Shown here: positions 8,892 through 39,355 of the stretch, piece by piece | Layout of the letters: every line of letters starts with the position of its first letter | Numbering within the stretch: position 1 is the first letter of the stretch | Origin: Streptacidiphilus sp. PB12-B1b | GTDB lineage: Bacteria; Actinomycetota; Actinomycetes; Streptomycetales; Streptomycetaceae | Assembly (NCBI RefSeq): GCF_014084125.1 | Contig: NZ_CP048405.1 | Coordinates: 744,001-808,000, forward strand | Length of the DNA: 64,000 nt | Direction of reading: 5' to 3' | Program-made: the position numbers and the translations under genes | The notes under the pieces: model-generated | What the model was told of the DNA's origin: nothing | Databases searched by the model: none | The model's input: only the letters and a program-made list of their open reading frames with translations

Positions 8892-8954
8892 CGACATCCC
8901 CCTCGTGTCGTCGCGTACGTCCACGACCAGTGTGACGCGACGGCGGGGAAAAGG

Positions 8955-8972
8955 GACAGCCCCCGGGCTGTC
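8955..8972 (-). terminator. Rho-independent hairpin in the DUF4231 leader
   Basis: GACAGCC and GGCTGTC pair (7 bp, 4-nt loop). On the minus strand they are followed by CCTTTT (U-tract from bases 8952-8949). A second 7-bp hairpin (8974-8992) stands immediately upstream in the transcript. The terminator sits about 60 nt before the DUF4231 start, the position expected for an attenuator. Confidence 0.55.
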
Positions 8973-9072
8973 TCCCGTCCGCGCAGGACGGGCGCCGGAG
9001 GACGGCCGGCGGGCCCGGGGGCCGGGTGGCTAGCTGTGGATTGCCACACAGTCCGAAGAACTGATTGGGCTG

Positions 9073-9111
9073 CTAGGCAGCAGCCACCTCACTGGTCCCA
9101 GAGAAACTCAT
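9073..9111 (-). CDS. 12-residue leader peptide MSFSGTSEVAAA
   Basis: ATG 9111 opens a 12-codon ORF ending at TAG (9073-9075). It has an exceptional Shine-Dalgarno sequence (9117-9131) and a good promoter (9144-9173), so translation is very likely despite the small size. Between it and the DUF4231 gene lie two hairpins, the second with a U-tract. The arrangement (promoter, short 5' end, tiny ORF, terminator, gene) resembles a ribosome-dependent attenuator. No run of regulatory codons is obvious; the peptide ends in three alanines. It is not an FxsA precursor, because it lacks the F-x-S-x-x C-terminus. Confidence 0.5.
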   Translation of the reverse strand: MSFSGTSEVAAA

Positions 9112-9116
9112 ACTCC

Positions 9117-9131
9117 GGATCACCTCCTTTC
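9117..9131 (-). promoter_or_regulatory. Extended 15-nt Shine-Dalgarno sequence
   Basis: The plus strand reads GGATCACCTCCTTTC, the 3'-terminal sequence of actinobacterial 16S rRNA. The minus-strand transcript is therefore complementary to the anti-Shine-Dalgarno tail over 15 consecutive bases. Ordinary sites match over five to eight bases. It ends about five bases before the ATG at 9111. Confidence 0.65.
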
Positions 9132-9143
9132 GCGTGTGCCGCC

Positions 9144-25701: not shown

Positions 25702-25714
25702 TGACGCAACGTCA
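25702..25714. promoter_or_regulatory. Operator 1, TGACGCAACGTCA
   Basis: A perfect 5-bp inverted repeat with 3-bp spacer, 19 bp upstream of the acyl-CoA ligase start. It is one of six copies of TGACG-N3-CGTCA in 25.7-39.4 kb and the pattern expected of a TetR-type repressor site. Confidence 0.7.
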
Positions 25715-25751
25715 GATCTTTCGCATGACTGCTGAGTTGCCTGTGCGGTCC

Positions 25752-26384
25752 TCAAGACGCCTGCGCTGCCCAGCAGTCGGCGACGGCGGCGGTGTCGGCG
25801 AGGGTCGCGGTCAGGGCCAGGGTGTGCCGCAGCACCGCTTCGGCGTACTCGGGCGGGGTGCCGGCCACCGCGTCCCGGACGACCACCGCCCGGAAGCCCG
25901 CGCCCACCGCGCCCAGCACCAGCTCCAGCAGCGCCACATTGAGCGACACCCCGACGCAGACCACGGTCCGCGCGCCGAGGTTGCGCAGCACGGTGGCCAG
26001 GCCGGTGTCCTGGAACGGGCCGAGGCCGTGCAGGCGCGGCAGCACCAGGTCGGCCGGGTCCGCGCCGATCCCGGGGTGCAGTGCGGCGGCGTCCGAGCCC
26101 GGCGTCAGGGGGACGGCCGCCCGGGCCGCCGCCGCGAACAGCCGGGCATTGCCGCCCGCGCCGCGACCGTCCGCCCGGCGCAGCGCGGTGCAGTGCAGCA
26201 CCGGCGCCCCGGCGGCCCGGGCCGCAGCGGTCAACCGGCCGATGTGCTGGACGAGTTCGGCCTTCCGGGCGGCCTCGGCCAGGGCCGGGAAGACCGCCGG
26301 CTCGCCGAGCACGCCGTTCTGGCACTCGCAGGTCACCAGCGCGGCCCGGCCCGGCCGCAGCAGCTCGTCCAGTGGTACGGCCAC
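25752..26384 (-). CDS. Isochorismatase-like hydrolase with altered catalytic site
   Basis: 210 residues with the isochorismatase (cysteine hydrolase) fold: ALVTCECQNGV at the N-terminus, a middle strand with DLVLPRLHG, then VVCVGVSLNVALLELVLGA and VVVRDAVAG. In active family members the segment after the GVSTN-like turn carries the nucleophilic Cys; here the aligned position reads NVAL, with Ala. The first Asp of the usual DxQ is also replaced by Glu in CECQN. The protein may therefore use another chemistry or be a binding protein. It is divergent from the amidohydrolase and shares its operator region. Confidence 0.8.
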   Translation of the reverse strand: MAVPLDELLRPGRAALVTCECQNGVLGEPAVFPALAEAARKAELVQHIGRLTAAARAAGAPVLHCTALRRADGRGAGGNARLFAAAARAAVPLTPGSDAAALHPGIGADPADLVLPRLHGLGPFQDTGLATVLRNLGARTVVCVGVSLNVALLELVLGAVGAGFRAVVVRDAVAGTPPEYAEAVLRHTLALTATLADTAAVADCWAAQAS

Positions 26385-26420
26385 GGTGCCGCCTTTCCGC
26401 GCGCTCGCCCGGCCGGGCGC

Positions 26421-26449
26421 TTGCCGCCCGTTCCCCGGCTCACTAGTCT
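26421..26449 (+). promoter_or_regulatory. Promoter of the amidohydrolase/acyl-CoA dehydrogenase operon
   Basis: TTGCCG (26421-26426) and TAGTCT (26444-26449) are separated by 17 bp. The predicted start, near 26456, falls inside operator 2. Binding at that site would block initiation or clearance. Confidence 0.5.
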
Positions 26450-26454
26450 GAATC

Positions 26455-26467
26455 TGACGGAGCGTCA
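26455..26467. promoter_or_regulatory. Operator 2, TGACGGAGCGTCA
   Basis: A perfect inverted repeat with 3-bp spacer, extended to CTGACG-GAG-CGTCAG. It lies in the 122-bp gap between the divergent isochorismatase-like and amidohydrolase genes, just after the predicted -10 element, so one site could control both. Confidence 0.75.
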
Positions 26468-26506
26468 GGTAAAGGGTTCGGGCAGCCGGACCTGGAGGGA
26501 GTCCCG

Positions 26507-27730
26507 ATGGACCTGCCCATGGTGGTCAGCGTCGACGACCACGTGATCGAACCCGCGCACCTCTTCGAGACCTGGCTGCCCGTCAGATACCGTGACCGGG
26601 GACCGAAGCCGCTGCGCGCGGGGATCGGCGAACTCGCCTACGTCGGCGGCAGGTACCGGATCACCATGGACCCGGCCGGGCCGCCCACCGACTGGTGGAT
26701 CTACGAGGACCTGCAGTTCCCGTACAAGCGCAACATCGCCGCCGTCGGCTTCGACCGGGACGAGATGACCCTCGAGGGCATCACCCGCGAGGAGATGCGC
26801 CGGGGCTGCTGGGATCCCAAGGCCCGGCTGGACGACATGCAGGGCAACCACGTCGAAGCCTCGCTGTGCTTCCCGACCTTCCCGCGCTTCTGCGGCCAGA
26901 CCTTCGCCGAGGCGCACGACAAGGAGGTGGCCCTGGCCTGCGTCCGCGCCTACAACGACTGGATGGTCGAGGAGTGGTGCGGCGACAGCGGCGGGCGGCT
27001 CATCCCGCTCTGCCTGATCCCGCTGTGGGACGTGGAGTTGGCCGCCGCCGAGATCCGCCGCAACGCCGCGCGCGGGGTCCGGGCGGTCTGCTTCAGCGAG
27101 ATCCCCACCTACCTGGGCCTGCCCAGCATCCACAGCGGCTACTGGGATCCGTTCTTCGCCGAGTGCCAGGCCACCGGCACGGTCGTCTGCATGCACATCG
27201 GCTCCTCCTCGCAGATGCCCGCCGCCTCCCCGGACGCGCCGCCCGCCGTGCAGGCCACGCTCAGCTTCAACAACGCCATGGCGTCGATGACCGACTTCCT
27301 CTTCTCCGGCGTGCTGGTGCGCTTCCCGAGCCTCACCCTCGCCTACAGCGAGGGGCAGATGGGCTGGATCCCGTACGCGCTGGAGCGCGCCGACGACGTC
27401 TGGCGGGAGCACCGGGCCTGGGGCGGGGTGCGGGACATCGTCCCCGAGCCGCCGTCCAGCTACTACTACCGTCAGATCTTCGCCTGCTTCTTCCGCGACC
27501 GGCACGGCGTCGCCTCGCTGGACACGGTCGGCGTGGACAACGTCACCTTCGAGACCGACTACCCGCACGTCGACTCGACCTGGCCGGACACCGAGGCCGT
27601 CGCCCGGGAGCACGTCGCGGGGCTGCCGCCGGACGTCGTCTACAAGATCATGCGCGGCAACGCCATCCGGATGCTCGGCCTGGACCTCGACCGCCACCTG
27701 GACGCCTGCGGACGCCCGCTGCGGCCCTGA
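26507..27730 (+). CDS. Amidohydrolase-family metal enzyme (ACMSD/LigW-like)
   Basis: 407 residues of the TIM-barrel amidohydrolase superfamily. The first strand motif reads VSVDDHVIEP in place of the usual DxHxxxP, then MHIGSSS (metal-ligand His) and TDYPHVDSTWP (final Asp/His). Proteins of this subgroup act as decarboxylases or hydrolases on cyclic acids. Within a cluster of acyl-CoA dehydrogenases it probably opens or decarboxylates a ring intermediate; that is inference. ATG 26507 has GGAGGGAG upstream. It leads an operon with the following acyl-CoA dehydrogenases, 50 bp apart, under operator 2. Confidence 0.88.
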   Translation: MDLPMVVSVDDHVIEPAHLFETWLPVRYRDRGPKPLRAGIGELAYVGGRYRITMDPAGPPTDWWIYEDLQFPYKRNIAAVGFDRDEMTLEGITREEMRRGCWDPKARLDDMQGNHVEASLCFPTFPRFCGQTFAEAHDKEVALACVRAYNDWMVEEWCGDSGGRLIPLCLIPLWDVELAAAEIRRNAARGVRAVCFSEIPTYLGLPSIHSGYWDPFFAECQATGTVVCMHIGSSSQMPAASPDAPPAVQATLSFNNAMASMTDFLFSGVLVRFPSLTLAYSEGQMGWIPYALERADDVWREHRAWGGVRDIVPEPPSSYYYRQIFACFFRDRHGVASLDTVGVDNVTFETDYPHVDSTWPDTEAVAREHVAGLPPDVVYKIMRGNAIRMLGLDLDRHLDACGRPLRP

Positions 27731-27780
27731 CCCCGGCCGCCGCGACCGTACATGCCGAGCGACGCCAAGGAGGCACCGCC

Positions 27781-28986
27781 GTGGAGCTGAGCGACACGCC
27801 CGCCGAGGCGGCGTTCCGGCGCGGGCTGCGCGCGTGGCTCGGCAAGACCCTGCCGGAGCTGCCGCCGCCGCCCGACCCGGCCGACTGGCCCGCCCGCCGC
27901 GCCTACGACACCGGCTGGCAGCGCAGGCTGTACGACGCCGGATACGCCGGGGTGCACTGGCCCGCCGAGGCGGGCGGCCGGGGGGCGGGCCCGGTCGAGC
28001 ACCTGATCTTCCTGGAGGAGACCGAGCGCGCCGGAGCCCCCTACGTCGGCGCCAACTTCGTCGGCCTGCTGCACGCCGGGCCGACCCTCGCCGCCGAGGG
28101 CACCCCCGAGCAGCGCCGCCGCCACCTGCCGCCGATCCTGCGCGGCGAGGAGGTCTGGTGCCAGGGCTTCAGCGAGCCCGGCGCCGGCTCCGACCTGGCC
28201 GCGCTGCGCACCCGGGCGGTCCGCGACGGCGACGCCTACGTGGTCAGCGGCAGCAAGATCTGGACCTCCCACGCCGAGGCCGCCGACTGGTGCGAGCTGC
28301 TGGTCCGCACCGACCCGGACGCCCCCCGGCACCGGGGCATCAGCTGGCTGGTGCTGCCCATGGACGCGCCCGGGGTGACCGTCCGCCCGCTGCGCACCCT
28401 GGCCGGGACGACCGAGTTCGCCGAACTCTTCCTGGACGAGGTGCGCGTCCCGGTCGGCAACCGCGTCGGCGCCGAGAACGACGGCTGGCGGGTGACCATG
28501 GTGACGCTGTCGTTCGAGCGCGGCACGGCGTTCGCGGGCGAGGTGGTGGCCGGCCGCCGGGCGCTGGCCCGGCTGGCGCGGCTGGCCGATGCCGAGGGCG
28601 CCTGGCAGGACGCCGGGCTGCGCCGCCGGATCGGCGCGCTGGCGGGGGAGTTCACCGCGCTGTGGCGGCTGGTGCAGTGGAACGTCTCGCAGGCGGCGGC
28701 GGCCGGGCCGGGCAGCGTGCCCGGAGCCGGGGCCTCGGTGTTCAAACTGCGCTTCTCCGAGGCCCGGCAGCAGCTGTACGACCTCGCGGCGGAGGTGCTC
28801 GGCCCGGCCGCGCTGCTCCTGCCCGATGCCGGGGCCGGAGCCGGTGCCGACGGCGATTGGGTTCCGCAGCGGCTCCAGGGCCTGGCGTACACCATCGCCG
28901 CAGGCACCTCGCAGATCCAGCGGACCATCGTGGCGCAGCGGGTGCTCGGCCTGCCGAAGCCTCGGACGACGGTCGGGGGCGGCTGA
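27781..28986 (+). CDS. Acyl-CoA dehydrogenase, first subunit of a pair
   Basis: 401 residues with the acyl-CoA dehydrogenase fold: the FAD/substrate motif WCQGFSEPGAGSDLAAL, a SKIWTSHA flavin-loop segment, and the C-terminal GTSQIQRTIVAQRVLGLP signature. GTG 27781 has AAGGAGG eight bases upstream. The start of the next gene overlaps its stop (28986), so the two are translationally coupled. In actinobacterial sterol-type pathways such adjacent pairs form alpha2beta2 enzymes with one active site per heterodimer. The partner is interrupted by a frameshift (see next entry). Confidence 0.9.
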   Translation: MELSDTPAEAAFRRGLRAWLGKTLPELPPPPDPADWPARRAYDTGWQRRLYDAGYAGVHWPAEAGGRGAGPVEHLIFLEETERAGAPYVGANFVGLLHAGPTLAAEGTPEQRRRHLPPILRGEEVWCQGFSEPGAGSDLAALRTRAVRDGDAYVVSGSKIWTSHAEAADWCELLVRTDPDAPRHRGISWLVLPMDAPGVTVRPLRTLAGTTEFAELFLDEVRVPVGNRVGAENDGWRVTMVTLSFERGTAFAGEVVAGRRALARLARLADAEGAWQDAGLRRRIGALAGEFTALWRLVQWNVSQAAAAGPGSVPGAGASVFKLRFSEARQQLYDLAAEVLGPAALLLPDAGAGAGADGDWVPQRLQGLAYTIAAGTSQIQRTIVAQRVLGLPKPRTTVGGG

Positions 28987-30040
28987 TGGACTTCCGGCTG
29001 ACGCAGGACCAGCGCGATCTGCGCGCGGGCATCGCCGCGCTGCTGGCGGGCCGCTTCGACCGGGCCCGGCTGCGCGCGGCCGTGGACGCCGGCGGGGCCT
29101 TCGACCCGGCGCTGTGGGCCGAGCTGCGCGCGGCGGGCGTGTTCTCGCTGCGGGTGCCGGAGGCGGCCGGGGGTTGGGCCTGGGGCTGGCCGAGGCGGTG
29201 CTGGTCTTCGAGGAGTTGGGCCGCGCGCTGCTGCCCGGCCCGCTGGTCGCCGCCGAACTCGCCTCGGCCGTGGGAGCGTCAGCCCCGGGAGGCTCGGCCG
29301 TGGGAGCGTCGGCCGCGCCCGGGCCGGTGGCGGCGCTGGTGCGGCTGCCGCACGGGCGCGGGCCGCTGCTGGTCGCGCAGGCGTCCGCGCTGGAGCTGCT
29401 GCTGGTGCTGGACGCGGACGCCGGTGAGCTGCGCGCGGTCGATCCGGCCGGGCTGTCCGGCCTGCTGCGGCCGGTGCGCTCGGTCGATCCGCTGACCCCG
29501 CTGTGGGAGCTCACCGGCTCGCCGCCGCACGGGGTTCCGGTGCCGGGCGCGGACGCCGGGCGGGTCTGGGCCGAGGGCACGCTGCTGACGGCCGCGTTCC
29601 AGCTGGGCCTGGCCGGGCGGGCGCTGGACTCGGCGGTGGCGTACGCCCGGCAGCGCGAGCAGTTCGGGCAGCCGATCGGGGCGTTCCAGGCCGTGCAGCA
29701 CCTCTGCGCGCAGCTGCCGGCCCGGTTGGAGCCGGCCCGGGCCGCCGTCCGCGCCGCCGCCGTCCTCCTGGACGCGGGCGGGCGCGCGGGCGGGCCGCCG
29801 GACGGCCCCGGGTCGGACGACGCCCTGGCCGAGGCCGCCGGGGCGAAGCTGCTGGCGGACGAGGCGGCGGTGTGCGGCGCGCGCGACTGCCTCCAGGTGC
29901 ACGGCGGCATGGGCTTCACCTGGGAGGCCGATGTGCACCTGCTGCTGAAGCGGGCCTGGGTGGGGCAGCAGGGCTTCGCCGGTCCGGTGGAGTGCGCCGA
30001 GGCCCTGGCCGGGCGGCTGCTGGCGGGGGGTCTGGTGTGA
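28986..30040 (+). pseudogene. Acyl-CoA dehydrogenase, second subunit, frameshifted
   Basis: The product begins MDFRLTQDQRDLRAGIAALL in frame from ATG 28986 and runs to base 29168. The conserved continuation (GLGLGLAEAVLVFEELGRALLPG, then AYARQREQFGQPIGAFQAVQH and VHGGMGFTWE) is in the frame one base back. A single G is missing from the run GGGGG at 29169-29173: the conserved reading needs six G. The interval of 1055 bp becomes divisible by three with one added base and would give 351 residues, a normal length for this subunit. It is either a sequencing error in a homopolymer or a recent inactivating deletion. Confidence 0.8.
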
Positions 30041-30450
30041 AGGGGCTGTGGACACTTGTAGGAAGGGTGGTTTTGCCGGGACGTCAGCAGGTTGCCGCTG
30101 ATCCGCGAACGGTTCGGTTACGCTCCACGAGTGCGGACGGATCGGAAGCCGGATCACCGGCAGCGGGGACGCTGGCGTCCTCCCGCGCGGGCTGTCACCC
30201 CGCGCGCCATGACGCCCGCCCGCCCCTGCCGGGGACCGTGACGACGGCATGGTGGAGGCCCTCGGGGGCAGTATGCACCCCCGGACCGCCTCCTCGGTGG
30301 AATATGCCCGAAGCGCTTGCCTTGGTTGGCGTGGGCGAATCATCCTGGGTCAGTTCCGTGGAGAAGCGGCGTCGGCGCTGTCGGTGTCCTCGTCGGCCCC
30401 ACGCCCTCTCCCGGGCACAACTGATCCCGCAAGTACGGGTGGTGTGAGCG
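30041..30450. other. Gene-free 410 bp upstream of the ATPase gene
   Basis: No ORF with convincing codon bias was found. It holds a GCAGCGGGGACGCTGGCG-like imperfect hairpin near 30163 and a TTGCCT element near 30320 without a clear -10. It separates the acyl-CoA dehydrogenase operon from the next gene and probably contains that gene's promoter. Confidence 0.5.
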
Positions 30451-30924
30451 GTGCAGGTGCTTCAGGTGCAGATTGCCGTACAGGCCGATCCGGCCGAGGT
30501 CGGGCGGGCCCGCAGATGGACGCGGTTGCGCCTGCAGGGGTGCGGGGTGGACCTCGATGCGCCGCTCGCCGAGACCCTGGTGCTGGTGGTCTCCGAACTG
30601 GTGACCAACGCGGTGGTGCACACCGGCTCACCGGCCGTGCTGCGGCTGGTCTTCCCGGTCGGCGCGGACGCCGACCGGCGCCCGGTGCGGGTCGAGGTCG
30701 CCGACGCCAGCGACCAGCCGCCGCAGCGCCGGAGCACGGCCAGCGAGGCGACCAGCGGGCGCGGCCTGGAGATGGTGGACTGCCTGACCGACCGCTGGGG
30801 CTGGTACCCGGACGGCGCGGGCAAGCGCGTGTGGTGCGAGATCGAGCCCGGCCAGGCCGGTGCCCCCGCCGGTGCCCCCGGTGACGCCGCCGCGCTTGAC
30901 CTGCACCGGCTGCTAGTGGGCTGA
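30451..30924 (+). CDS. RsbW-like ATP-binding (HATPase) regulatory protein
   Basis: 157 residues of the small histidine-kinase-type ATPase family. The N box is LVVSELVTNAVVHTG (about 47-61), G1 is VEVADASDQPP, and G2 is SGRGLEMVDCLTDRWG. Such proteins act as anti-sigma factors or as serine kinases for STAS antagonists. There are many in Streptomyces. GTG 30451 is the start consistent with the fold, and the ribosome site is weak. It interrupts the catabolic cluster and has no operator of the TGACG type in front of it, so it is probably unrelated to that pathway. Confidence 0.82.
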   Translation: MQVLQVQIAVQADPAEVGRARRWTRLRLQGCGVDLDAPLAETLVLVVSELVTNAVVHTGSPAVLRLVFPVGADADRRPVRVEVADASDQPPQRRSTASEATSGRGLEMVDCLTDRWGWYPDGAGKRVWCEIEPGQAGAPAGAPGDAAALDLHRLLVG

Positions 30925-30991
30925 GCCCCCGACCGTCGCAGCCGCCGCCTCCGCGTGAATGGCGCGGAACAGGCCGATTGCGCGCATCACT

Positions 30992-31032
30992 CGGGAAATT
31001 GGCGTCAATGTCCCTATCGTGACGATTTCCCG
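30992..31032. repeat. Interrupted 41-bp palindrome
   Basis: CGGGAAAT (30992-30999) pairs with ATTTCCCG (31025-31032). Inside it CGTCA (31003-31007) pairs with TGACG (31020-31024), leaving a 3-nt bulge and a 12-nt loop. The sequence is AT-richer than its surroundings. It could be an RNA hairpin or a protein-binding site. Confidence 0.45.
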
Positions 31033-31483
31033 TGTCCGTCGCCGCATACCACGGCGCCGGTATTCCCGGCCACAATTCGGTCTCGCCGAGAAAACGCCCT
31101 GATAACCCCAAGCGGTCCCGGTCGGCCCCGGATCGCGCCCCGGCGGCGGCCCGGCGGGGTTGCTGCGGCGTGCCGGACGGGTGGGGCGGGTGTGACCGGG
31201 CGAGCGCCGGGCCCGGCCGCCGCTCGCCCCGGGCAGCCGCCGCCGACGTCCTTCGTTGACGCAGCAACCCCCCGTTGACCTGCGGCGACGTTGGGTGTCC
31301 GGGCCCGGCGCCGATCTCCGCCGCCGGGCTGCGGCGGGCTGCGGCCGCCGCCGTGAGCCGGTCCCGGGCCGCCCGCGCCGGGCATTCGGCGGCCCCCGTG
31401 AACAGTTCGCACCCAGGGGTGAATTCCGGTCAGCGGATCGTCCGCGAGCCGACCGAAAGCGCACGCAACCAATCCGAATCACG

Positions 31484-31521
31484 GATCAGCCATTGACGTG
31501 GCGTGTCCGGCTGATCACTCT
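31484..31521 (+). promoter_or_regulatory. Promoter candidate inside an inverted repeat
   Basis: GATCAGCC (31484-31491) and GGCTGATC (31509-31516) form a perfect 8-bp inverted repeat with 17-bp spacer. The spacer contains TTGACG (31493-31498), and CACTCT follows at 17-bp spacing (31516-31521). A dimeric repressor bound here would occlude the promoter. No gene is recognised downstream on this strand before the cyclase stop. Confidence 0.35.
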
Positions 31522-31734
31522 TGGAGCCGTCGGCCTGTTGCGAGGGGACGTTGAGGGCGCGTACGGCCGTCGGTCGTGGGAGCGTGTCCTTGGCGAGGGC
31601 AGGTCGATCCGGCGCGAAACAGGGTGGAGCCCCGGGGGGTTCGCGGCGTCGAGGCCGGGTGGCGGGGTTCCGAGCAGTGCGTGCAGCGCTGTGCGGTGTC
31701 CCGCTACCCGGTCTTTCTGTCAGGGCGGGCGGCC

Positions 31735-32673
31735 CTACTTGACCGCCACCGGGACGACCGGTGCCCCCACGCCCCCGGTGAACGGCTCCGGCGGCGCGGA
31801 GAGCAGGAAGGCGTAGCGCCCGTCCTCGGCGCAGTCCGCCGCCAGCGCCTCCAGGTTCCAGTTCTGGCCCTGCATCATGCCCATCTCCACCAGGTCCAGC
31901 GCGTGCACCGGCAGGAACAGGCCGTCGATCTCGGGCGGGAAGACCTCGAAGGTGAGCGTGTCGTCGGCGACGGCGGCCACGTCCCGGGCGTGGAACCAGG
32001 CCGGGGTGTGCAGCGACAGCCCGGGGGAGGGGAAGGCGTACGCCTCCCGGTCGCCGCCGAGGTAGAGCTGGATCTGGCCGGTGCGCACCAGCACGATGTC
32101 CCCGGCCCGCACCCGGGTCCGCGCCAGCTCCTGCGCGGCGTCCAGGTCGTCCGGGGTGACCACGTGGCCGGGCGGCAGTCGTCCGACGCCGCGCGCCCGG
32201 GCGACGTCCAGCAGCACGCCGCGCCCGAGCACCGGCCCGGGCTTCTCGATGCCGCTGCGCAGGGCGCCCTCGTGCGCGGTGAGGGCGGCGTCGGCCGGGC
32301 GGTTGTTGTAGATCCGGTTGCCGTGGCTGACGTGGCCGAGGCCATCCCAGTGGGTGGCCGCCTGGAGCCCCATGGTCACCGTGTCGTCGCTGGTGGCGAC
32401 AGCGCCCGGGCCGAACATCTCCCAGTTCAGCGCGGTCATGGTGTGCAGCGGGTTGGTCCGGCCGGGGATCAGGCCGCTCTGCACGCCCTGCTGCTGCAAG
32501 GGCAGCGCCAGCGAGAGGCGGCGGCCGCTGCGGACGGTGGCCGCCGCCTCCCGGACGCCTTCCGGGGTGATCAGGTTGAGCGTGCCGATCTCGTCGTCGT
32601 CGCCCCAGCGGCCCCAGTTGTTGACCTGCTCGGCGATCTCCCGGAATGCCTCGAAGTCTGCGGGTGCCGGCAC
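31735..32673 (-). CDS. Cyclase-family protein (kynurenine formamidase-like)
   Basis: 312 residues from GTG 32673, which has GGGAGGG five bases upstream; a TTG at 32706 would extend it without a ribosome site. It has the cyclase/formamidase metal motif, here THWDGLGHVSHG in place of HxGTHxDxPxH, and the later DIVLVRTG and LFLPVHALDLVEMG segments. Family members hydrolyse amide or lactone bonds or catalyse ring closure with Mn or Zn. A near-perfect TGACG-N3-CGTCA operator lies 37 bp upstream, so it belongs to the catabolic regulon, divergent from the SDR gene. Confidence 0.85.
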   Translation of the reverse strand: MPAPADFEAFREIAEQVNNWGRWGDDDEIGTLNLITPEGVREAAATVRSGRRLSLALPLQQQGVQSGLIPGRTNPLHTMTALNWEMFGPGAVATSDDTVTMGLQAATHWDGLGHVSHGNRIYNNRPADAALTAHEGALRSGIEKPGPVLGRGVLLDVARARGVGRLPPGHVVTPDDLDAAQELARTRVRAGDIVLVRTGQIQLYLGGDREAYAFPSPGLSLHTPAWFHARDVAAVADDTLTFEVFPPEIDGLFLPVHALDLVEMGMMQGQNWNLEALAADCAEDGRYAFLLSAPPEPFTGGVGAPVVPVAVK

Positions 32674-32709
32674 GGCGCCCTCCCGGATCTCGGTCCTGCC
32701 CGACAAATC

Positions 32710-32722
32710 TGACGATGCCTCA
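32710..32722. promoter_or_regulatory. Operator 3, TGACGATGCCTCA (one mismatch)
   Basis: Same palindrome with one changed base in the right arm (CCTCA for CGTCA), 37 bp upstream of the cyclase start. It pairs with operator 4, 48 bp away, in the divergent cyclase/SDR promoter region. Confidence 0.55.
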
Positions 32723-32750
32723 GGTCTGGTGCCCCTCCCGACCGCCCTCC

Positions 32751-32756
32751 TAGAAT
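32751..32756 (+). promoter_or_regulatory. -10 element of the SDR operon
   Basis: TAGAAT matches five of six -10 consensus bases and ends one base before operator 4. The -35 is poor (around 32727), which fits a repressible or activator-assisted promoter. The GTG start of the SDR gene follows at 32793 after GGGGAGGGG. Confidence 0.45.
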
Positions 32757-32757
32757 C

Positions 32758-32770
32758 TAACGGTCCGTCA
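32758..32770. promoter_or_regulatory. Operator 4, TAACGGTCCGTCA (one mismatch)
   Basis: The left arm is TAACG for TGACG; the right arm is exact. The flanks C and G extend the symmetry to CTAACG-GTC-CGTCAG. It overlaps the predicted transcription start of the SDR operon. Confidence 0.6.
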
Positions 32771-32792
32771 GATAGTTGGGGAGGGGTACGGC

Positions 32793-33701
32793 GTGGGCGA
32801 GTTCCTGCAGGGCAAGGTGATCGCGGTGACCGGCGCGGGCCGGGGCATCGGCCGCGCGGTCGCCCTCGGCTGCGCCGCCGAGGGCGCCCGCGTGGTCGTC
32901 AACGACTACGGCGTCTCCGCCGACGGCACGGATCCGAGCAGCGAGGTCGCCGCCGCCGTGGTCAAGGAGATCGAGGCGCTCGGCGGGGCCGCCGTCGCCG
33001 TCGCCGACGACGTCTCCACCATGGCCGGCGGCGCGCGCGTCGTCCGCACCGCCGTCGACACCTGGGGACGCCTGGACGCGGCCGTCTGCGTCGCCGGGAT
33101 CCTGCGCGAACGGATGCTGTTCAACATGTCCGAGCAGGAGTGGGACGGCGTGGTCGACACCCACCTCAAGGGCACCTTCACCGTCTTCCGCGCCGCCGCC
33201 GCACTGATGCGCGCCCAGGGCAGCGGCACCCTCGTCGGCTTCACCAGCGGCAACCACACCGGCAGCGTCAGCCAGGCCAACTACAGCGCGGCCAAGGGCG
33301 GCGTCATCTCGCTGGTCCGCAGCGCCGCCCTCGGCCTGCACAAGTACGGCGTCACCGCCAACGGCGTCGCGCCGGTCGCCCGCACCCGGATGTCCGCCGG
33401 GGTGCCCATGGAGCTGACCGAGATCGGCGAGCCCGAGGACGTCGCCGCCCTCGTCGTCTACCTGCTCTCGGACCGGGCCGCCGGGATCACCGGGCAGGTC
33501 TACACCGTCGCCGGGCCCAAGATCGCCGTCTGGGCCCAGCCGCGCGAGCTGCGCGCCATGTACGCCGAGGGCGGGGCCTGGACGCCCGAGCGCATCGCCG
33601 AGGCCCTGCCCGGCGCGATCGGCAGCGATCCCATGCCGATGCTCGCCCAGCTCGACGCGATGGCGAAGGCCGCCGCCGCGAAGCAGCGTCCGAACGCCTG
33701 A
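32793..33701 (+). CDS. Short-chain dehydrogenase/reductase (17beta-HSD4-like)
   Basis: 302 residues. The NAD(P) motif TGAGRGIG lies near residue 13 and the catalytic YSAAK near 170, with a Ser about 13 residues earlier in GFTSGNHTG. It resembles the dehydrogenase domain of multifunctional beta-oxidation enzymes that oxidise 3-hydroxyacyl-CoA or ring hydroxyls. GTG 32793 has GGGGAGGGG upstream. It begins the operon SDR, acyl-CoA dehydrogenase, aldehyde dehydrogenase, alcohol dehydrogenase, with gaps of about 35 bp. Confidence 0.9.
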   Translation: MGEFLQGKVIAVTGAGRGIGRAVALGCAAEGARVVVNDYGVSADGTDPSSEVAAAVVKEIEALGGAAVAVADDVSTMAGGARVVRTAVDTWGRLDAAVCVAGILRERMLFNMSEQEWDGVVDTHLKGTFTVFRAAAALMRAQGSGTLVGFTSGNHTGSVSQANYSAAKGGVISLVRSAALGLHKYGVTANGVAPVARTRMSAGVPMELTEIGEPEDVAALVVYLLSDRAAGITGQVYTVAGPKIAVWAQPRELRAMYAEGGAWTPERIAEALPGAIGSDPMPMLAQLDAMAKAAAAKQRPNA

Positions 33702-33737
33702 CGGGCGCGCGGACCGCAGGAAGGGACCGGCCCGGAG

Positions 33738-34919
33738 ATGGACTTCTCCTTCAGCACCGACGACGAGGCGTTCCGCGCGCGGGCCCGGCAGTGGCTGGCG
33801 GAGCGGCTCGAGGCCCCCGGCGCGCCCTTCGCCGACCTGCGCCCCACCACCGGCGGCGAGCCGCCCGGCCATCGGCGCCGGCTGGAGTGGGAGCGGGAGC
33901 TGGGCGCGGGCGGCTGGATCGGCCTCGGCTGGGCCGAGGGCACGCTCACCCGGCAGGTCGTCTGGGCCGAGGAGTACGCCCGGGCCCAGGCCCCGGCCTC
34001 GCTCGGCGTCGTCGGCGAGCACCTGCTCGCGCCCACCCTGCTGCGCCACGGCAGCCCAGCCCAGCAGCAGCGCTTCCTGCCCGGGATCGCCAGCGGCGAG
34101 GAGATCTGGTGCCAGGGCTACAGCGAGCCCGGCGCCGGCTCCGACCTGGCCTCGGTCCGCACCACCGCCGCGCCGGACGGCGACGGCTGGCGCGTCGACG
34201 GCCAGAAGACCTGGACCTCGCTCTCCCAGTGGGCCCACCGCTGCTTCGTGCTGGCCCGCACCGAGCCCGGCTCGCACCGGCACCACGGCCTGAGCCTGCT
34301 GCTGCTGCCCATGGACCAGCCGGGCCGGGTCGAGGTGCGCCCGATCCGGCAGTTGGACGGCCACTGCGACTTCAGCGAGGTCTTCTTCGACGGTGCCCGC
34401 GCCGACCACGTGGTCGGCCGCCCCGGCGACGGCTGGCGGGTGGCGATGACCCTGCTCTCCTTCGAGCGCGGCGCGGGCATGCTCGGCCGCCAGATCGGCT
34501 TCGCCCGCGAGCTCGACACCGTGCTCGCCGAGGCGGCCCGCACCGGCGCGGCCGACGACCCGGTCGTCCGCGAGCGGCTCACCCGGCAGTGGGCCGAGCT
34601 GCACACCATGCGCTGCAACGCGCTGCGGACCCTGGGCACGGCCGAGCCGGGCTCGGCGGCCGTGGCCAAGCTGCTCTGGGGCGGCTGGCACCAGCGCCTG
34701 GGCGAGCTGGCCGTCCGCGTCCTCGGGCCGGAGGGCGCCACCGTGCCCGGCCACCTGCACTCCGATGTCTATGCGGTGACGGAGGCTCAGCAGCGGATGC
34801 TGTTCTCCCGCGCGGACACCGTCTACGGCGGCAGCGACCAGATCCAGCGCAACCTGATCGCCGAGCGCGTCCTCGGCCTGCCCCGCGAACCGCGCCCGGC
34901 CCGGCCGCAGCGCCCCTGA
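33738..34919 (+). CDS. Acyl-CoA dehydrogenase
   Basis: 393 residues beginning MDFSFSTDDEAFRARARQWL. The FAD motif WCQGYSEPGAGSDLASV and the flavin-loop QKTWTSLSQWA are present. The C-terminal signature is YGGSDQIQRNLIAERVLGLP. It has an ordinary length for one subunit and no adjacent partner. The gene follows the SDR by 36 bp and leads the aldehyde dehydrogenase by 35 bp, so all are one transcript. It should introduce a double bond in an acyl-CoA intermediate and pass electrons to the ETF chain. ATG 33738 has GGAAGGGA upstream and an immediate GGAG. Confidence 0.9.
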   Translation: MDFSFSTDDEAFRARARQWLAERLEAPGAPFADLRPTTGGEPPGHRRRLEWERELGAGGWIGLGWAEGTLTRQVVWAEEYARAQAPASLGVVGEHLLAPTLLRHGSPAQQQRFLPGIASGEEIWCQGYSEPGAGSDLASVRTTAAPDGDGWRVDGQKTWTSLSQWAHRCFVLARTEPGSHRHHGLSLLLLPMDQPGRVEVRPIRQLDGHCDFSEVFFDGARADHVVGRPGDGWRVAMTLLSFERGAGMLGRQIGFARELDTVLAEAARTGAADDPVVRERLTRQWAELHTMRCNALRTLGTAEPGSAAVAKLLWGGWHQRLGELAVRVLGPEGATVPGHLHSDVYAVTEAQQRMLFSRADTVYGGSDQIQRNLIAERVLGLPREPRPARPQRP

Positions 34920-34954
34920 ACCCGCCTTCGCCACAGCTCATGTGAGGGACAGTC

Positions 34955-36438
34955 ATGGCAAGCACAGCCCACCGGCTCTACATCGACGGCGCCTGGCGCG
35001 AGGGCGGCGACGGCAGCTACGCCGTGGTCGACCCCGCCACCGAACAGGTCGTCGGCCACGCCCCCGAGGCGTCCGCCGCCGACGTCGCGGACGCCGTCGC
35101 CGCCGCCCGCCGGGCCCAGGACGGCTGGTCCCGCACCAGCCCGGCCGAGCGCGCCGCCGTGCTGGACCGGATCGCCGACGCGGTGCTGGCGCACGCCGAG
35201 GAGTGGGTGCCGCTGCTCCAGGCCGAGACCGGGGCGACGATCCGGGTGGCGTCGTCCATGCAGCTGCCGGTGGTCGCGGAGCGCTTCCGCCGCTACGCCC
35301 GGGGCGCGCTGGAGCCGGTGCTGGCCCCGCTCGCGCCGCAGCCGGTGCCGCCCTCGGCGCTCGCCCCGGCGGGCTGACCAGCGCCGTCACCGCGCGCCGA
35401 CCGGTGGGCGTGGTCGGCTGCGTCACCTCCTACAACTTCCCGATCGTGAACCTCGCCGGCAAGCTCGCGCCCGCGCTGGCCATGGGCAACACCGTGGTCG
35501 CCAAGCCGGCCCCGCAGGACCCGCTGACCTGCCTGCGGCTCGGCGAGGTCTTCGAGGAGGCCGGTGCGCCCCCCGGCATCCTCAACATCGTCACCGGCTC
35601 CGGCGCGGCGCCGGGCGCGGCCCTGGTCGCCTCCCCGGACGTCGACATGATCAGCTTCACCGGCTCGACCGCCGTCGGCCGCCGCATCGCCGCCGACGGC
35701 GGCGCGACCATGAAGCGCCTGCTGCTGGAGCTGGGCGGCAAGGGCGCGGGCATCGTCCTCGCGGACGCCGACGCGGACGCCGCCGTCGCCGCCATCGGCT
35801 CCACCTGGGCGTTCCACTCCGGGCAGATCTGCACCGCGCCCACCCGCGCCCTGGTCCACCGCTCCCGCTACGACGAGGTCGTCGCCGGGCTGGCCCGCTT
35901 CGCCTCGGCGCTGCCGGTCGGCGACCCGCGGCTGCCCGGCACCGTCGTCGGCCCGGTGATCAGCGCCGTCCACCGGGACCGGGTCGAGGCGTACATCGCC
36001 GGGGCGCTCGCCGACGGCGCGCGCCTGGTCACCGGCGGCACCCGCAAGGAGCACGCGCCGGACGCGCCGGCCCTGCCCGACACCGGCTTCTACGTCGCTC
36101 CGACCCTGCTCGCCGACGCCACCCCGCAGATGGCCGTCGCCCGCGAGGAGGTCTTCGGCCCGGTCGTCGTCGTGCTGCCCTTCGACGACGAGGAGGAGGC
36201 GGTGGCGCTGGCCAACTCCACCGACTACGGCCTGTACGACTACGTCTTCTCCCGCGACACCGCCCGCGCCTACGCCCTCGCCGGGCGGCTGCGCAGCGGC
36301 AGCGTCGGCATCAACACCGCCCAGCGCCACGGCGAGGCCCCCTTCGGCGGCTTCAAGCAGAGCGGCGTCAACCGCGACTGCGGCTCCCATGCGCTGCACG
36401 CCTACAGCGAACTCCAGTCCCTGGTCTGGCAGTCCTAA
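34955..36438 (+). pseudogene. NAD-dependent aldehyde dehydrogenase, frameshifted
   Basis: From ATG 34955 the frame encodes a normal N-terminus (LYIDGAWREGGDGSYAVVDPATEQ) but ends at TGA 35375-35377. The remainder is in the next frame: TSYNFPIVN with the conserved Asn, LELGGKGAGIV with the catalytic Glu, FHSGQICTAPTR with the catalytic Cys. One C appears to be missing from the run CCCC at 35364-35367. The 1484-bp interval plus one base gives 494 residues, the usual family length. It is the second single-base deletion in a homopolymer within this cluster. It would oxidise an aldehyde to an acid if intact. Confidence 0.82.
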
Positions 36439-36439
36439 C

Positions 36440-36452
36440 TGACGTAGCGTCA
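36440..36452. promoter_or_regulatory. Operator 5, TGACGTAGCGTCA
   Basis: A perfect palindrome with 3-bp spacer, immediately after the aldehyde dehydrogenase stop and 27 bp before the alcohol dehydrogenase start. It suggests the last gene has its own repressible promoter. Confidence 0.7.
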
Positions 36453-36479
36453 CATCGCGCCGACAACTGAGGAGTCACC

Positions 36480-37556
36480 ATGAAAGGCGTCATCTTCGAC
36501 GGCAAGTCGGCTCAGGTGGTGGACGATCTCGCGGTCCGCGCCCCCGAGCCGGGTGAGGTGCTGGTGCGGATCGCCGCCGCCGGGCTGTGCCACAGCGACC
36601 TCTCGGTGATCGACGGCACCATCCCCTTCCCGGTGCCGGTCGTGCTCGGCCACGAGGGCGCGGGCACGGTCGAGGCCGTCGGCCCCGGCGTCACCCATGT
36701 CGTCCCCGGGGACCACGTGGCGCTGTCCACCATCGCCAACTGCGGCACCTGCGCCGAGTGCGGGCGCGGGCGGCCGACCATGTGCCGCAAGGCCATCGGC
36801 TACCCCGGCAAGCCCTTCACCCGCGCCTCGGAGCCGCGCACCCCGATCCACAACTTCGCCTCCGCCTCGGTCTTCGCCGAACGCACCGTGGTCAAGGCCG
36901 TGCAGGCGGTGCGGATCGATCCGGAGATCCCGTTCACCTCGGCCGCGCTCATCGGGTGCAGCGTGGTCACCGGGGTCGGCGCGGCGCTGAACCGGGCCCG
37001 GATCCGGATGGGCGACAGCGTCGCCGTCATCGGCTGCGGCGGCATCGGCCTCAACGTGATCCAGGGCGCGCGGATCGCCGGGGCGTCCAGGATCATCGCC
37101 GTGGACGCGGTCGCCGCCAAGGAGCCGCTGGCACGGACCTTCGGCGCCACCGACTTCGTGGACGCCCGCGCGGCGGCCTCCACCGTCGACGCCGTCCGCG
37201 CGCTGCTGCCGCACGGCGTGGACCACGCCTTCGAGTGCGTCGGCCACACCGGCCTGATCCGCCAGGCCGTCGACCTGCTCGACCGGCACGGACAGGCCGT
37301 GCTGCTCGGCATGGTCCCGGTCACCGCCGAGGCGTCGTTCCGCCCGGCCGAACTCTTCCTGGACAAGTCCATCCTGGGCTGCCGCTACGGCTCCTCCCGC
37401 CCGCAGGACGACATCGCCCGCTATGCCGGGCTCTACCGCTCCGGGCAGCTGCTGCTGGACGAACTCGTCACCGCTGTGTATCCGGTGGACGACTTCGAGC
37501 GCGCCGCCGACGACACCCACCACGCCCGGGTGGCCCGCGCCGTCCTCACCTTCTGA
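36480..37556 (+). CDS. Zinc-dependent alcohol dehydrogenase (class III-like)
   Basis: 358 residues of the medium-chain dehydrogenase family. Catalytic-zinc ligands are in GLCHSD and GHEGAG, structural zinc in CGTCAECGRGRPTMC, and the NAD-binding glycines in VIGCGGIGLNVIQG. The enzyme should oxidise a primary alcohol to an aldehyde, the substrate for the neighbouring aldehyde dehydrogenase. ATG 36480 has GAGGAG eight bases upstream, and operator 5 lies in front. Its 3' end overlaps the next, oppositely oriented gene by 11 bp. Confidence 0.92.
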   Translation: MKGVIFDGKSAQVVDDLAVRAPEPGEVLVRIAAAGLCHSDLSVIDGTIPFPVPVVLGHEGAGTVEAVGPGVTHVVPGDHVALSTIANCGTCAECGRGRPTMCRKAIGYPGKPFTRASEPRTPIHNFASASVFAERTVVKAVQAVRIDPEIPFTSAALIGCSVVTGVGAALNRARIRMGDSVAVIGCGGIGLNVIQGARIAGASRIIAVDAVAAKEPLARTFGATDFVDARAAASTVDAVRALLPHGVDHAFECVGHTGLIRQAVDLLDRHGQAVLLGMVPVTAEASFRPAELFLDKSILGCRYGSSRPQDDIARYAGLYRSGQLLLDELVTAVYPVDDFERAADDTHHARVARAVLTF

Positions 37557-37938
37557 CCGCGCTGCCGCTGCTGCTCCGGCCGGCGGCCTGGAGGTACTCG
37601 GCGTACCGCTCGCCGAGCAGCTGCCGCATGTCGTCGCGGGCGGCGGACAGCAGCCGCAGCGGTAGCTGCGGGTTGCGGTCCCGGCCCTCGGCCTGAGCGG
37701 CCAGATCCAGGAAGTACGCCAACACCTCGCCGACGCGCGGCTGTTCGGTGCGGCTGCTCAGGTACGGCATGGGATAGGTCGCGTTCAGCGGCATCCTGGC
37801 TGCGTCGTCCCGTCCCGAGGGCCACCCCTCGACCAGCGTCACCGCCCATCCGTCCGGGTAGTGCCGGTGCTCGGCGAGGTAGATCGTGATGCGGTCCCGG
37901 TCGGCCAGCTGCTGGAGCCTGTCTGAGTGAGGCGACAT
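37546..37938 (-). CDS. Hypothetical 130-residue protein
   Basis: A 130-residue ORF with Streptomyces codon bias, rich in Tyr, Asp and Arg. Segments such as ITIYLAEHRHYPDGWAVTLVEG suggest a small alpha/beta protein. No domain, signal peptide or membrane helix was recognised. Its start has no good ribosome site, and the gene overlaps the convergent alcohol dehydrogenase by 11 bp. It is probably real but its function is unknown. Confidence 0.5.
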   Translation of the reverse strand: MSPHSDRLQQLADRDRITIYLAEHRHYPDGWAVTLVEGWPSGRDDAARMPLNATYPMPYLSSRTEQPRVGEVLAYFLDLAAQAEGRDRNPQLPLRLLSAARDDMRQLLGERYAEYLQAAGRSSSGSAVRR

Positions 37939-38174
37939 TTGTCCATACTTGCAATGTCCGCGTCAAAAGTCGAGCCCGCTCCAGGGAGCCTCAGGCCGGG
38001 CCCGTCGCCGCCTGACGGGTTGCCCTGTAAGGGAGTTGGGACATGCTGGAGGTCGACCTGCCGAGGGCGACCGAATGGACGTCATCGAGGCGGGTGGCCC
38101 CGGCCGGGCGTCACCCGAGCCGGGTCGGTGGACGGGCGGGCCCTGGGGACGCGAAGGCCCCCAGGGGGCGCCGC

Positions 38175-39236
38175 TCAGGCCGTGGGAAACTCGCCGGCCT
38201 TCACCGCCGCCACGAACGCGCGGAACGCGTCCGTTGAGACCGACAGGATGGGGCTCGCGTCGCCGAGGGTCGTGTCCACGATGGGGACTATGCCCTGTGG
38301 CAGGTGTGTACGGGACACCCCGACGCAGTTTCCCTCTGCGTCAGCAGAGTAGGAGGACTTGAAGATTTTCAGATCGCTGTACCTGATCGGGCTTCGCATG
38401 TTGATCATTTCTCTCAGGATGTCACGGATCAGCTTCCGCGACTCGGATACAGACAGCGCACAGCCCGCCGTCTGCTGATAGATGTGGGCGTGGTCTAGGA
38501 CTTCCGAGGGAGCATCGACGAAGAAAGCTGCGCTGAGCGCCTCGGAGTAGAACCACTGCTCGCCGTCGGCAAGGTTCAGGAGCGCCATAAGAGTGCCCGG
38601 GGGAACTGCGGGTCGGGGAAAGAGTGGCACAACTTGGATCACGACATTGGGCAGTTGGGACATTCTGAGCAGATGGGTGAGCTGTTCCACCATGGTCTGA
38701 AGCCCGCCCACTTGGCGCCGCAGTACGCCCTCGTCCATGAGCACGGACAACCTTAGGGCGCTGGGCCCGTAGAGCCGTCTCTGTCGGTTCAGGCGGATCT
38801 CGATGAGCTCCTCGATGCGCTTGGCGGCGTGGCCGCGTCTGGTGAACAGAGCGCGCATGTGTGCTTCGGTCTGGAGCAGTCCCGATACGTTGTAGGGATC
38901 CCACTCACGAAGGGTGACTGCCTCGGACTCAAGCAGCAGGTAGCGATCAAACCAGTCGGGCCTTCTGCCCAGTGCCCGGACTCGCCAGTCGATCCGTGCG
39001 TAGAGCGTCGCAAGGGTGCCGCCGGTGTGCAATTCCTGGTCGCATGCTGTCACGAATGCGAGCGATGGTTTGCGTCGATCCGCCTCAACATGGGTGACGT
39101 ATGACCTGTCGAACTGGATGCGCTCCGCCAGCGCATCTGCGGTGAGGGATGTGGACTCGCGGATGGTTCGCAGAAGCAGGCCGAACACTGCGCCTGGCGT
39201 CTCCACCAGGTCGGATTGTTCACTGCGGCGAGCCAT
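38175..39236 (-). CDS. XRE/DUF5753 regulator fused to a DUF397 domain
   Basis: 353 residues. Residues about 15-75 form an XRE helix-turn-helix (LTADALAERIQFDRSYVTHVE), and about 85-285 the DUF5753 ligand-binding-like domain (VSGLLQTEAHMRALF, VIQVVPLFPRPAVPPG). The last 65 residues match DUF397 (FKSSYSADAEGNCVGV ... FRAFVAAVKAGEFPT), which is normally a separate small protein encoded next to such regulators. ATG 39236 has AAGGAG seven bases upstream. Codons such as CTA, AGG, TTG and ACT are frequent and the GC content is clearly below the neighbours, suggesting recent acquisition. It resembles WhiJ/BldB-type loci. Confidence 0.85.
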   Translation of the reverse strand: MARRSEQSDLVETPGAVFGLLLRTIRESTSLTADALAERIQFDRSYVTHVEADRRKPSLAFVTACDQELHTGGTLATLYARIDWRVRALGRRPDWFDRYLLLESEAVTLREWDPYNVSGLLQTEAHMRALFTRRGHAAKRIEELIEIRLNRQRRLYGPSALRLSVLMDEGVLRRQVGGLQTMVEQLTHLLRMSQLPNVVIQVVPLFPRPAVPPGTLMALLNLADGEQWFYSEALSAAFFVDAPSEVLDHAHIYQQTAGCALSVSESRKLIRDILREMINMRSPIRYSDLKIFKSSYSADAEGNCVGVSRTHLPQGIVPIVDTTLGDASPILSVSTDAFRAFVAAVKAGEFPTA

Positions 39237-39342
39237 CGGCCACTCCTTCGCTGGGTGCGAACTGACGTTCAAAGCGATAGGGACAGAGTTGTCTGTCCCA
39301 CAGCGGCTCTTTCCCGAGCGCCTGGGCATCGCAATCCTAGGA

Positions 39343-39355
39343 TGACGCACCGTCA
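39343..39355. promoter_or_regulatory. Operator 6, TGACGCACCGTCA
   Basis: A sixth perfect copy of TGACG-N3-CGTCA in the divergent gap between the XRE-DUF397 gene and the small-gene operon, overlapping the last base pairs of a TAGGAT -10-like element on the plus strand. On the minus strand TTGACG is also an acceptable -35, so part of the match could be coincidental. Confidence 0.45.

Follow-up and report, generated by a model that had tools for sequence, protein, structure and literature searches.

A TGACG-N3-CGTCA palindrome as the probable operator of a conserved TetR-family repressor in Streptacidiphilus and its relatives

In a 64,000-nucleotide stretch of the Streptacidiphilus sp. PB12-B1b genome (contig NZ_CP048405.1, positions 744,001 to 808,000; hereafter the window), copies of the palindrome TGACG-N3-CGTCA lie in and beside a catabolic gene cluster. 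We consider it probable, at roughly three chances in four, that this palindrome, in an extended form of about A-N-C-TGACG-NWN-CGTCA-G-N-T, serves as operator for a single conserved repressor of the TetR family. The genomes examined contain an enriched motif with conserved footprints and a promoter geometry, sites clustered at a TetR gene, co-occurrence of gene and motif across the phylum, and a TetR protein of fitting predicted fold; from these we infer binding, repression and a ligand. The repressor would be encoded far from the window in this genome, within a second catabolic island, and near the window's cluster in most relatives examined. Bound as a dimer where transcription of the amidohydrolase operon (26455) and of the divergent cyclase and SDR operons (32710, 32758) begins, TetR would obstruct RNA polymerase, and an acyl-coenzyme A (acyl-CoA) of the pathway would release the protein from its operators. 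If so, an orphan motif is joined to a regulator in a pair that can be tested and that is conserved across an entire bacterial family, the Streptomycetaceae.

The exact pattern occurs four times in the window; 100 dinucleotide-preserving shuffles averaged 0.06 copies and none had as many as four (0/100), in agreement with a first-pass annotation of this DNA that had put the chance expectation well below one. Matches with up to two mismatches were fewer than in the shuffles (27 vs 43), and the signal is therefore limited to the exact copies and some one-mismatch copies. A scan of the whole genome (7.67 Mb, one contig), which the annotation had proposed, gave 150 exact sites (the sum of three sub-pattern scans, 63 + 43 + 44) against 3 for a reversed control pattern. 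The enrichment was specific to the spacer: in an 847-kb survey of DNA picked mostly around sites, 62 copies had a spacer of 3, and spacers of 0-2 and 4-12 gave 0-3 copies each. One-mismatch copies were also in excess at spacer 3 (62, vs 10 at spacer 6, where the codon phase is identical), and the second base, G, was altered in just 2 of these 62. The spacer-3 copies of the survey yielded the consensus (C)TGACG-NWN-CGTCA(G), and 87 copies with at most one mismatch near the candidate regulator in 20 family genomes yielded A-N-C-TGACG-N3-CGTCA-G-N-T. All 61 family genomes sampled carried the motif, in 11 to 315 copies (reversed control, 0 to 10). Among 149 genomes of the phylum, counts of at least 36 were seen solely in this family, and the maximum elsewhere was 13. 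No description of the motif or of the candidate TetR was found among the papers listed for the literature searched, a body from which subscription journals and preprints were largely absent.

Six copies had been annotated in the window, and all six were recovered, four of them exact (25702, 26455, 36440 and 39343) and two with one mismatch (32710 and 32758). Window positions of these copies and of the predicted promoter are as follows:

25702..25714, no strand: exact palindrome, 24 bp upstream of the CoA-ligase start
26421..26449, plus strand: O1 promoter, with -35 TTGCCG (26421-26426), a 17-bp spacer and -10 TAGTCT (26444-26449)
26455..26467, no strand: O1, exact palindrome TGACGGAGCGTCA, with flanks CTGACGGAGCGTCAG (26454-26468), in the amidohydrolase promoter
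32710..32722, no strand: O3, TGACGATGCCTCA, one mismatch, in the promoter of the divergent cyclase gene, at 48 bp from O2
32758..32770, no strand: O2, TAACGGTCCGTCA, one mismatch, in the SDR promoter, with -10-like TAGAAT at 32751-32756
36440..36452, no strand: exact palindrome in the gap that separates the aldehyde and alcohol dehydrogenase genes, 7 bp after the preceding gene and 34 bp upstream of the alcohol dehydrogenase start
39343..39355, no strand: exact palindrome, next to an XRE-type gene and past the catabolic genes

Two more one-mismatch copies are present at 30074 and 42090. By position, five of the six copies (25702, 26455, 32710, 32758 and 36440) are at promoters of the catabolic cluster, as had been stated.

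Conservation was followed in 14 genomes, namely this genome and 13 relatives, apparently also Streptacidiphilus. O1 lies between the divergent isochorismatase and amidohydrolase genes and was exact and in place in 14/14 genomes, with both arms invariant and the centre reading GAG, GAC or GAT, so that the conserved operator reads CTGACGGA[G/C/T]CGTCAG. CTTGCCGC and TAGTCT were likewise conserved in 14/14, the base preceding TAGTCT deviating in one relative (G042), and the sequence upstream of the amidohydrolase common to all 14 was TAGTCTGAATCTGACGGA[G/C/T]CGTCAGGTAAAGGGT. O1 is thus placed directly behind a predicted consensus promoter, at the expected transcription start. One relative (G208) has an additional exact palindrome immediately before the amidohydrolase. 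O2 and O3 share the gap between the divergent cyclase and SDR genes. O2, which reads CTAACGGTCCGTCAG, was unchanged in 14/14 genomes, as was AGAATCTAACGGTCCGTCAGA upstream of the SDR gene, indicating that this imperfect copy is conserved no less strongly than the perfect O1. A -10-like hexamer just upstream of O2 reads TAGAAT in 9/14 genomes and AAGAAT in 5/14; with TAGTCT just upstream of O1 in 14/14, both palindromes overlap a predicted core promoter, and the earlier claim that two copies overlap predicted starts is supported.

The remaining copies were kept less well. O3 was found at the same spacing and with one mismatch in 6/14 genomes (this one, G208, G209, G030, G019 and G002). The copy at 25702 is kept in 3/14: it is exact here, and G030 and G019 each have a one-mismatch copy close to the corresponding start; G206 carries an exact copy within the ligase gene instead of before its start. 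The same gap in the 13 relatives contained no exact or one-mismatch counterpart of 36440. The XRE gene beside 39343 was not found in the relatives' loci, hence there is no orthologous place at which that copy could be compared. In G030, G019, G002 and G206 an exact copy that may or may not correspond to 39343 lies 2-4 kb past the alcohol dehydrogenase. The six copies, first presented as equivalent members of a regulon, therefore separate into two kept in 14/14 genomes and others kept in 6/14 (32710), in 3/14 (25702) or in this genome only (36440). On this comparison two window copies, 26455 and 32758, look like operators.

The prediction that the regulator gene lies outside the window is also supported. 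No TetR_N match was present in the window (150 of 268 first-look candidates were scored), the nearest lying at genome positions 705,979 and 851,167. A candidate elsewhere is a 215-residue TetR encoded at 7,131,059-7,131,712, inside a second catabolic island that holds exact sites at 7,123,915 and 7,133,990; its PF00440 (TetR_N) match at 7131155 scored 26.2 bits (cut-off, 24). It was picked for its position in this island and afterwards examined in other genomes. At an E value of 1e-30 it was found in 61/61 family genomes, as one copy in 60 and two in one, with 66-97% identity outside this genome. In 7/9 genus relatives (G030, G019, G042, G054, G058, G046 and G037) it shares a contig with the window's cluster, 13-19 kb past the alcohol dehydrogenase; the genus members G206-G209 were outside the 61-genome survey. 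Invariant residues in eight orthologues numbered 63 among the first 69 and 64 among the remaining 146. The predicted structure (predicted local distance difference test score, 90.4) has the all-helical TetR fold and matches EthR of Mycobacterium tuberculosis, the closest solved structure by fold (template modeling score ~0.79) and by sequence (3.5e-6); the fatty-acyl-CoA-binding DesT and FadR ranked below it. The identity to EthR, 17-20%, is far too low for orthology, and the operator and targets of EthR differ from those proposed for the candidate.

Outside the genus the family sample has 51 genomes, and in 20 of them we examined how sites are distributed around this gene. Together these had 23 exact sites within ~20 kb of TetR, whereas the site density of each genome predicts 4.88 (P 2.5e-9). 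The 20 genomes were hand-chosen for genus spread, with G008, G044 and G060 added for nearby sites already noticed, and G035 among them had one nearby site already seen; when these four were left out, 16 exact sites remained vs 4.57 expected (P 2.4e-5). In this genome the divergent promoter adjoining TetR carries paired operators, and CTGATGTACCGTCAG or a one-base variant of it lies at a similar distance from TetR in 6/20 family genomes (distances to the TetR start in family loci carry an offset of some 5 bases; G012 and G018, in which the start anchor could not be located, contributed counts alone). In 30/30 loci the half-matching, two-mismatch site CTGACGGCATGACAG overlaps the TetR start codon and follows TAAACT or TAAGCT. 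An everted half-site pair (CGTCAGCCTGACGG) lies ~70 bp upstream of TetR in 9/10 genus loci (L276-L285).

Outside the family, TetR was found at an E value of 1e-20 or better in 7/145 genomes. These had 1, 3, 13, 11, 3, 4 and 12 copies of the motif, vs a mean of 1.8 in the rest, and the three highest counts outside the family (13, 12 and 11) were all in TetR-bearing genomes. TetR thus went with higher counts (Mann-Whitney, 8.4e-4; Fisher's test, 2.8e-4 at a threshold of 10 that was set after the counts were seen), in tests that ignore genome size and relatedness. Exact sites precede the aligned TetR start by 78 bp in G186, 680 bp in G084 and 1.3 kb in G076; the short stretches taken at the remaining 5/8 distant homologue loci contained no exact site. 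In G084, G099 and G158 (L328, L330 and L332) the frames directly upstream of the TetR homologues end alike, in sequence that by eye resembles an isochorismatase-type hydrolase, and an isochorismatase-type gene is likewise present in the window cluster.

A number of observations weigh against TetR as the owner of the operator. Its own promoter in this genome holds two-mismatch sites only. The first-pass annotation had proposed looking for a TetR gene with the site in its own promoter, and none appeared: 0/103 TetR_N matches of this genome had an exact copy within 1.8 kb upstream, a result that also left no other TetR gene as a candidate by proximity. The TetR gene is far from the cluster in this genome and in G050 and is on another contig in G002, and 8/20 family TetR loci lack any exact site. 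Genomes with merely 11-17 motif copies still carry TetR, indicating that its presence does not set the motif number. Outside the family, G156 has 10 copies without a TetR match, G108, G076, G099 and G158 carry TetR yet have only 1-4 copies, and the association of TetR with motif count takes no account of genome size or relatedness. The homologue in G108, where the motif count is 1, contains an internal stop. Other regulator genes may adjoin the cluster, such as a GntR-like gene seen by eye in G005, and a regulator close to the cluster need not control it. The absence of a full operator from the TetR promoter, the presence of TetR in low-copy genomes and the variation of the flanks from site to site would all fit a different arrangement, in which the operator belongs to another regulator, or to several paralogues sharing the half-site, and TetR is a frequent neighbour only. 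We consider this arrangement unlikely: the exact sites cluster around TetR, gene and motif co-occur outside the family, TetR shares the cluster's contig in 7/9 relatives, and its DNA-binding part is strongly conserved. In this genome, the TetR genes at 923704, 1484755, 2781862 and 4337297 have an exact palindrome just beyond their 3' end.

A further difficulty for the TetR operator comes from sites outside promoters. Of the 150 exact sites, 148 were classified: 57 are in genes, 39 at a stop codon, 28 in promoter position and 24 elsewhere. The simple gene caller used misses genes of unusual codon use, such as the XRE gene at 38178-39237, and the coding and intergenic classes therefore carry error. 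Most exact copies thus lie outside promoter position, and 33 of the 89 intergenic ones (37%) are 8-100 bp before a start, vs 36% for random intergenic positions; the exact sites show no overall promoter preference and lack the concentration at promoters looked for in a large regulon. Convergent gaps hold 31 of the 89 (35%, vs 15% random) and divergent gaps 18% (vs 32% random). Within 8 bp of a gene end were 38/89 intergenic exact sites vs 189/824 lone half-sites, which also favour stop codons, though less strongly, because TGA is a stop codon. The first-pass annotation had held that many copies spread at random in coding regions would speak against a regulon. Copies in genes are indeed many, and the intergenic ones are no closer to starts than random; the in-gene copies are far from randomly placed, however, with 59 exact ones vs 0.2 and 0.7 in two synonymous shuffles and 62 one-mismatch ones vs 19.8. 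By class, one-mismatch copies numbered 52 intergenic and 63 coding. The in-gene excess indicates that the motif has been selected or has otherwise accumulated well beyond promoters. One in-gene copy differed from a relative by two synonymous substitutions, with no insertion. About 100 exact, apparently selected candidate sites outside promoters therefore pose a puzzle beyond what a regulon alone explains. The TetR operator does not account for the fact that most exact copies sit inside genes, at stop codons or in convergent gaps; titration, roadblocks or a chromosome-wide role may do so.

SlmA, Noc and MatP are chromosome-wide palindrome binders, and the many exact palindromes in genes and intergenic DNA resemble their sites. 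A protein, either the same or another, might also bind across the chromosome to serve a purpose such as nucleoid organisation, occlusion or titration, in which case repression at promoters would be just part of its work; we consider this unlikely. The in-gene excess and the 57/148 coding sites fit it, as do the 39 sites at stop codons (27 of them with a central A/T), the share in convergent gaps and one convergent site that is conserved in G208. The palindromes studied here differ from the sites of SlmA, Noc and MatP in their uneven spread, with a coefficient of variation of the gaps of 1.57 vs 0.99 for random sites, in a copy number ranging from 11 to 315 between genomes, and in the conserved promoter operators. 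The SlmA model matched weakly (26 bits vs a cut-off of 120), and the 21.9-kb counterpart of a region with five sites lacks any exact copy. That counterpart is in Streptacidiphilus sp. 4-A2, with 0 exact copies and 2/5 places unaligned; the region itself (L077/L078, 4.566-4.591 Mb in this genome) has a phage-baseplate/injection-system-like gene and five exact palindromes. In another region of 20 kb (L016), 1/5 sites has an exact counterpart in G208, and no exact counterpart was found in G209 or G050, where several places were unaligned. At L016 3720, CTGACGCTCCGTCAG aligns with CTGATCTGCAGTCAG of G208 (L268), the outer bases and flanks being identical and the core altered at several positions. 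Near the left end of the genome, 37.8-647.7 kb is a 610-kb stretch without an exact palindrome, the sites being clustered elsewhere. A combined possibility, which we regard as unlikely, is that one TetR has two jobs in Streptacidiphilus and its kin: it would repress steroid/isoprenoid-type catabolism at a few dozen promoters and bind chromosome-wide at 100 or more palindromes selected in genes, at stops and between convergent genes, with a copy number expanded by lineage (11 to 315).

If the motif were an RNA hairpin or a bidirectional terminator at gene ends, its abundance at stop codons and in convergent gaps would also be expected. We regard such a role as extremely improbable: a covariation signal is absent, symmetric two-sided changes numbering 19 at spacer 3 vs 36, 59 and 32 at spacers 2, 4 and 5, and the best-kept copies are at promoters and in-gene copies are abundant. 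A BldD box has the consensus TNACNCWGNGTNA, with an inner C-W-G. It shares with the palindrome the length, the outer T-AC...GT-A and the central A/T, and some sites precede XRE-type genes (39343; by eye, L102 and L105). The inner C-W-G is not prominent here (C 31%, G 34%), no site lies within 600 bp of the XRE-DUF5753 relatives at L055 and L023, and WhiJ9 is described as binding the direct repeats CGXXCTCAAC (PMC10294661), which differ from the palindrome; a BldD box or another XRE-family box, including an XRE-DUF5753/DUF397 regulon, is accordingly very improbable. The SpdA/sps motif of pIJ101 differs in sequence. Four loci of plasmid relatives among the matches had no exact site, with one one-mismatch site in a Prescottella locus. 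Sites shared with low-copy family genomes were, in the cases inspected, in conserved coding sequence or different in position (a CobO-type gene start, the start-proximal stretch of a divergent gene, and mreB, which differed in position).

We next consider the pathway under the proposed TetR operators. The catabolic genes of the window are:

24031..25683, minus strand: acyl-CoA ligase (AMP-binding), PF00501, 1.9e-62
25752..26384, minus strand: isochorismatase-family hydrolase, PF00857, 2.4e-26
26507..27730, plus strand: amidohydrolase_2, the first gene downstream of O1, PF04909, 8.3e-46
27781..30040, plus strand: two acyl-CoA dehydrogenase-type genes (27781-28986 and 29174-30040), Pfam, the second matched in a longer reading
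31735..32673, minus strand: putative cyclase, behind O3, PF04199, 2.4e-20, in a longer reading (31735-32706)
32793..33701, plus strand: SDR oxidoreductase, behind O2, PF13561, 4e-37
33738..37556, plus strand: acyl-CoA dehydrogenase, aldehyde dehydrogenase (two frames) and zinc alcohol dehydrogenase, Pfam/NCBIfam

The cluster is present in all 13 genus relatives, and the gene order of 33738..37556 is the same in 13/13. Among 37 proteins next to promoter-class sites genome-wide, acyl-CoA ligases, acyl-CoA dehydrogenases, luciferase-like monooxygenases and SDRs numbered 3 each and amidohydrolases 2; four of the 37 are from the window itself, including one ligase and one amidohydrolase. The stop/coding class (82 proteins of <1,000 residues, one promoter-class duplicate dropped) had 2 AMP-binding and 2 acyl-CoA dehydrogenase proteins, with SDR and luciferase families not among the 25 of 130 families listed. 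The controls (80 of 100 drawn) had 2 AMP-binding proteins, with no acyl-CoA dehydrogenase among the 25 of 128 families listed. These tallies, which are small and given as plain counts, support an acyl-CoA-type, catabolic theme among promoter-site genes. Near TetR in G035 are a thiolase and a relative of the CoA-transferase alpha subunit 6co6 (2.7e-97), which we take to be IpdA. The island around TetR in this genome encodes a relative of the lipid-transfer protein 6ok1 (1.5e-98), presumably Ltp2, and relatives of solved acyl-CoA dehydrogenases (7.4e-30). Given these assumed identities of 6co6 and 6ok1, the TetR neighbours suggest steroid-type catabolism. An acyl-CoA ligand of TetR is plausible. 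At 7.026-7.030 Mb of this genome (L108 824-5134), another amidohydrolase gene has luciferase-type genes around it; exact palindromes precede two of the genes in this region, and a third is preceded by two one-mismatch sites.

Other TetR regulators bind odd-centred palindromes of 13-15 bp, among them BioQ, whose operator is TGAAC-N3-GTTCA. The palindrome studied here resembles the BioQ type as a 13-bp palindrome with a 3-bp spacer and differs by description in half-site and pathway. In mycobacteria and rhodococci, steroid ring catabolism is repressed by KstR2, a TetR-type protein with the 14-bp motif AnCAAGnnCTTGnT and three sites per genome (PMC3068626). As described there, KstR2 acts in divergent promoters at a short palindrome some tens of bp away from starts and is encoded among its targets; the candidate would resemble it in these respects, and in G035 it has the CoA-transferase relative and the thiolase as neighbours. 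The motif proposed for the candidate differs, TGACG-N3-CGTCA in 150 copies contrasting with AnCAAGnnCTTGnT at three sites, and the conserved operators at O1 and O2 do not match AnCAAGnnCTTGnT. No chain named KstR2 was among the 12 PDB matches of the candidate (E value 0.001). The candidate was not classed as KstR2 because the operator differs; the comparison suggests that it may work like KstR2 without being KstR2, and that Streptomycetaceae may run steroid-like catabolism under a regulator distinct from it.

Several minor features of the window were also recorded. The aldehyde dehydrogenase (34955-36438) is split into two frames, and the spacing of its parts in G209, G208 and G030 is compatible with one open frame; the split could reflect a sequencing error or a decayed gene. 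The XRE-type regulator at 38178-39237 is a single frame with a middle and an end that we take to be DUF5753-like and DUF397-like, respectively. On the minus strand at 8951-9137, the window contains a match to Rfam Ms_IGR-5 (RF02471) of 86.5 bits against a threshold of 45.

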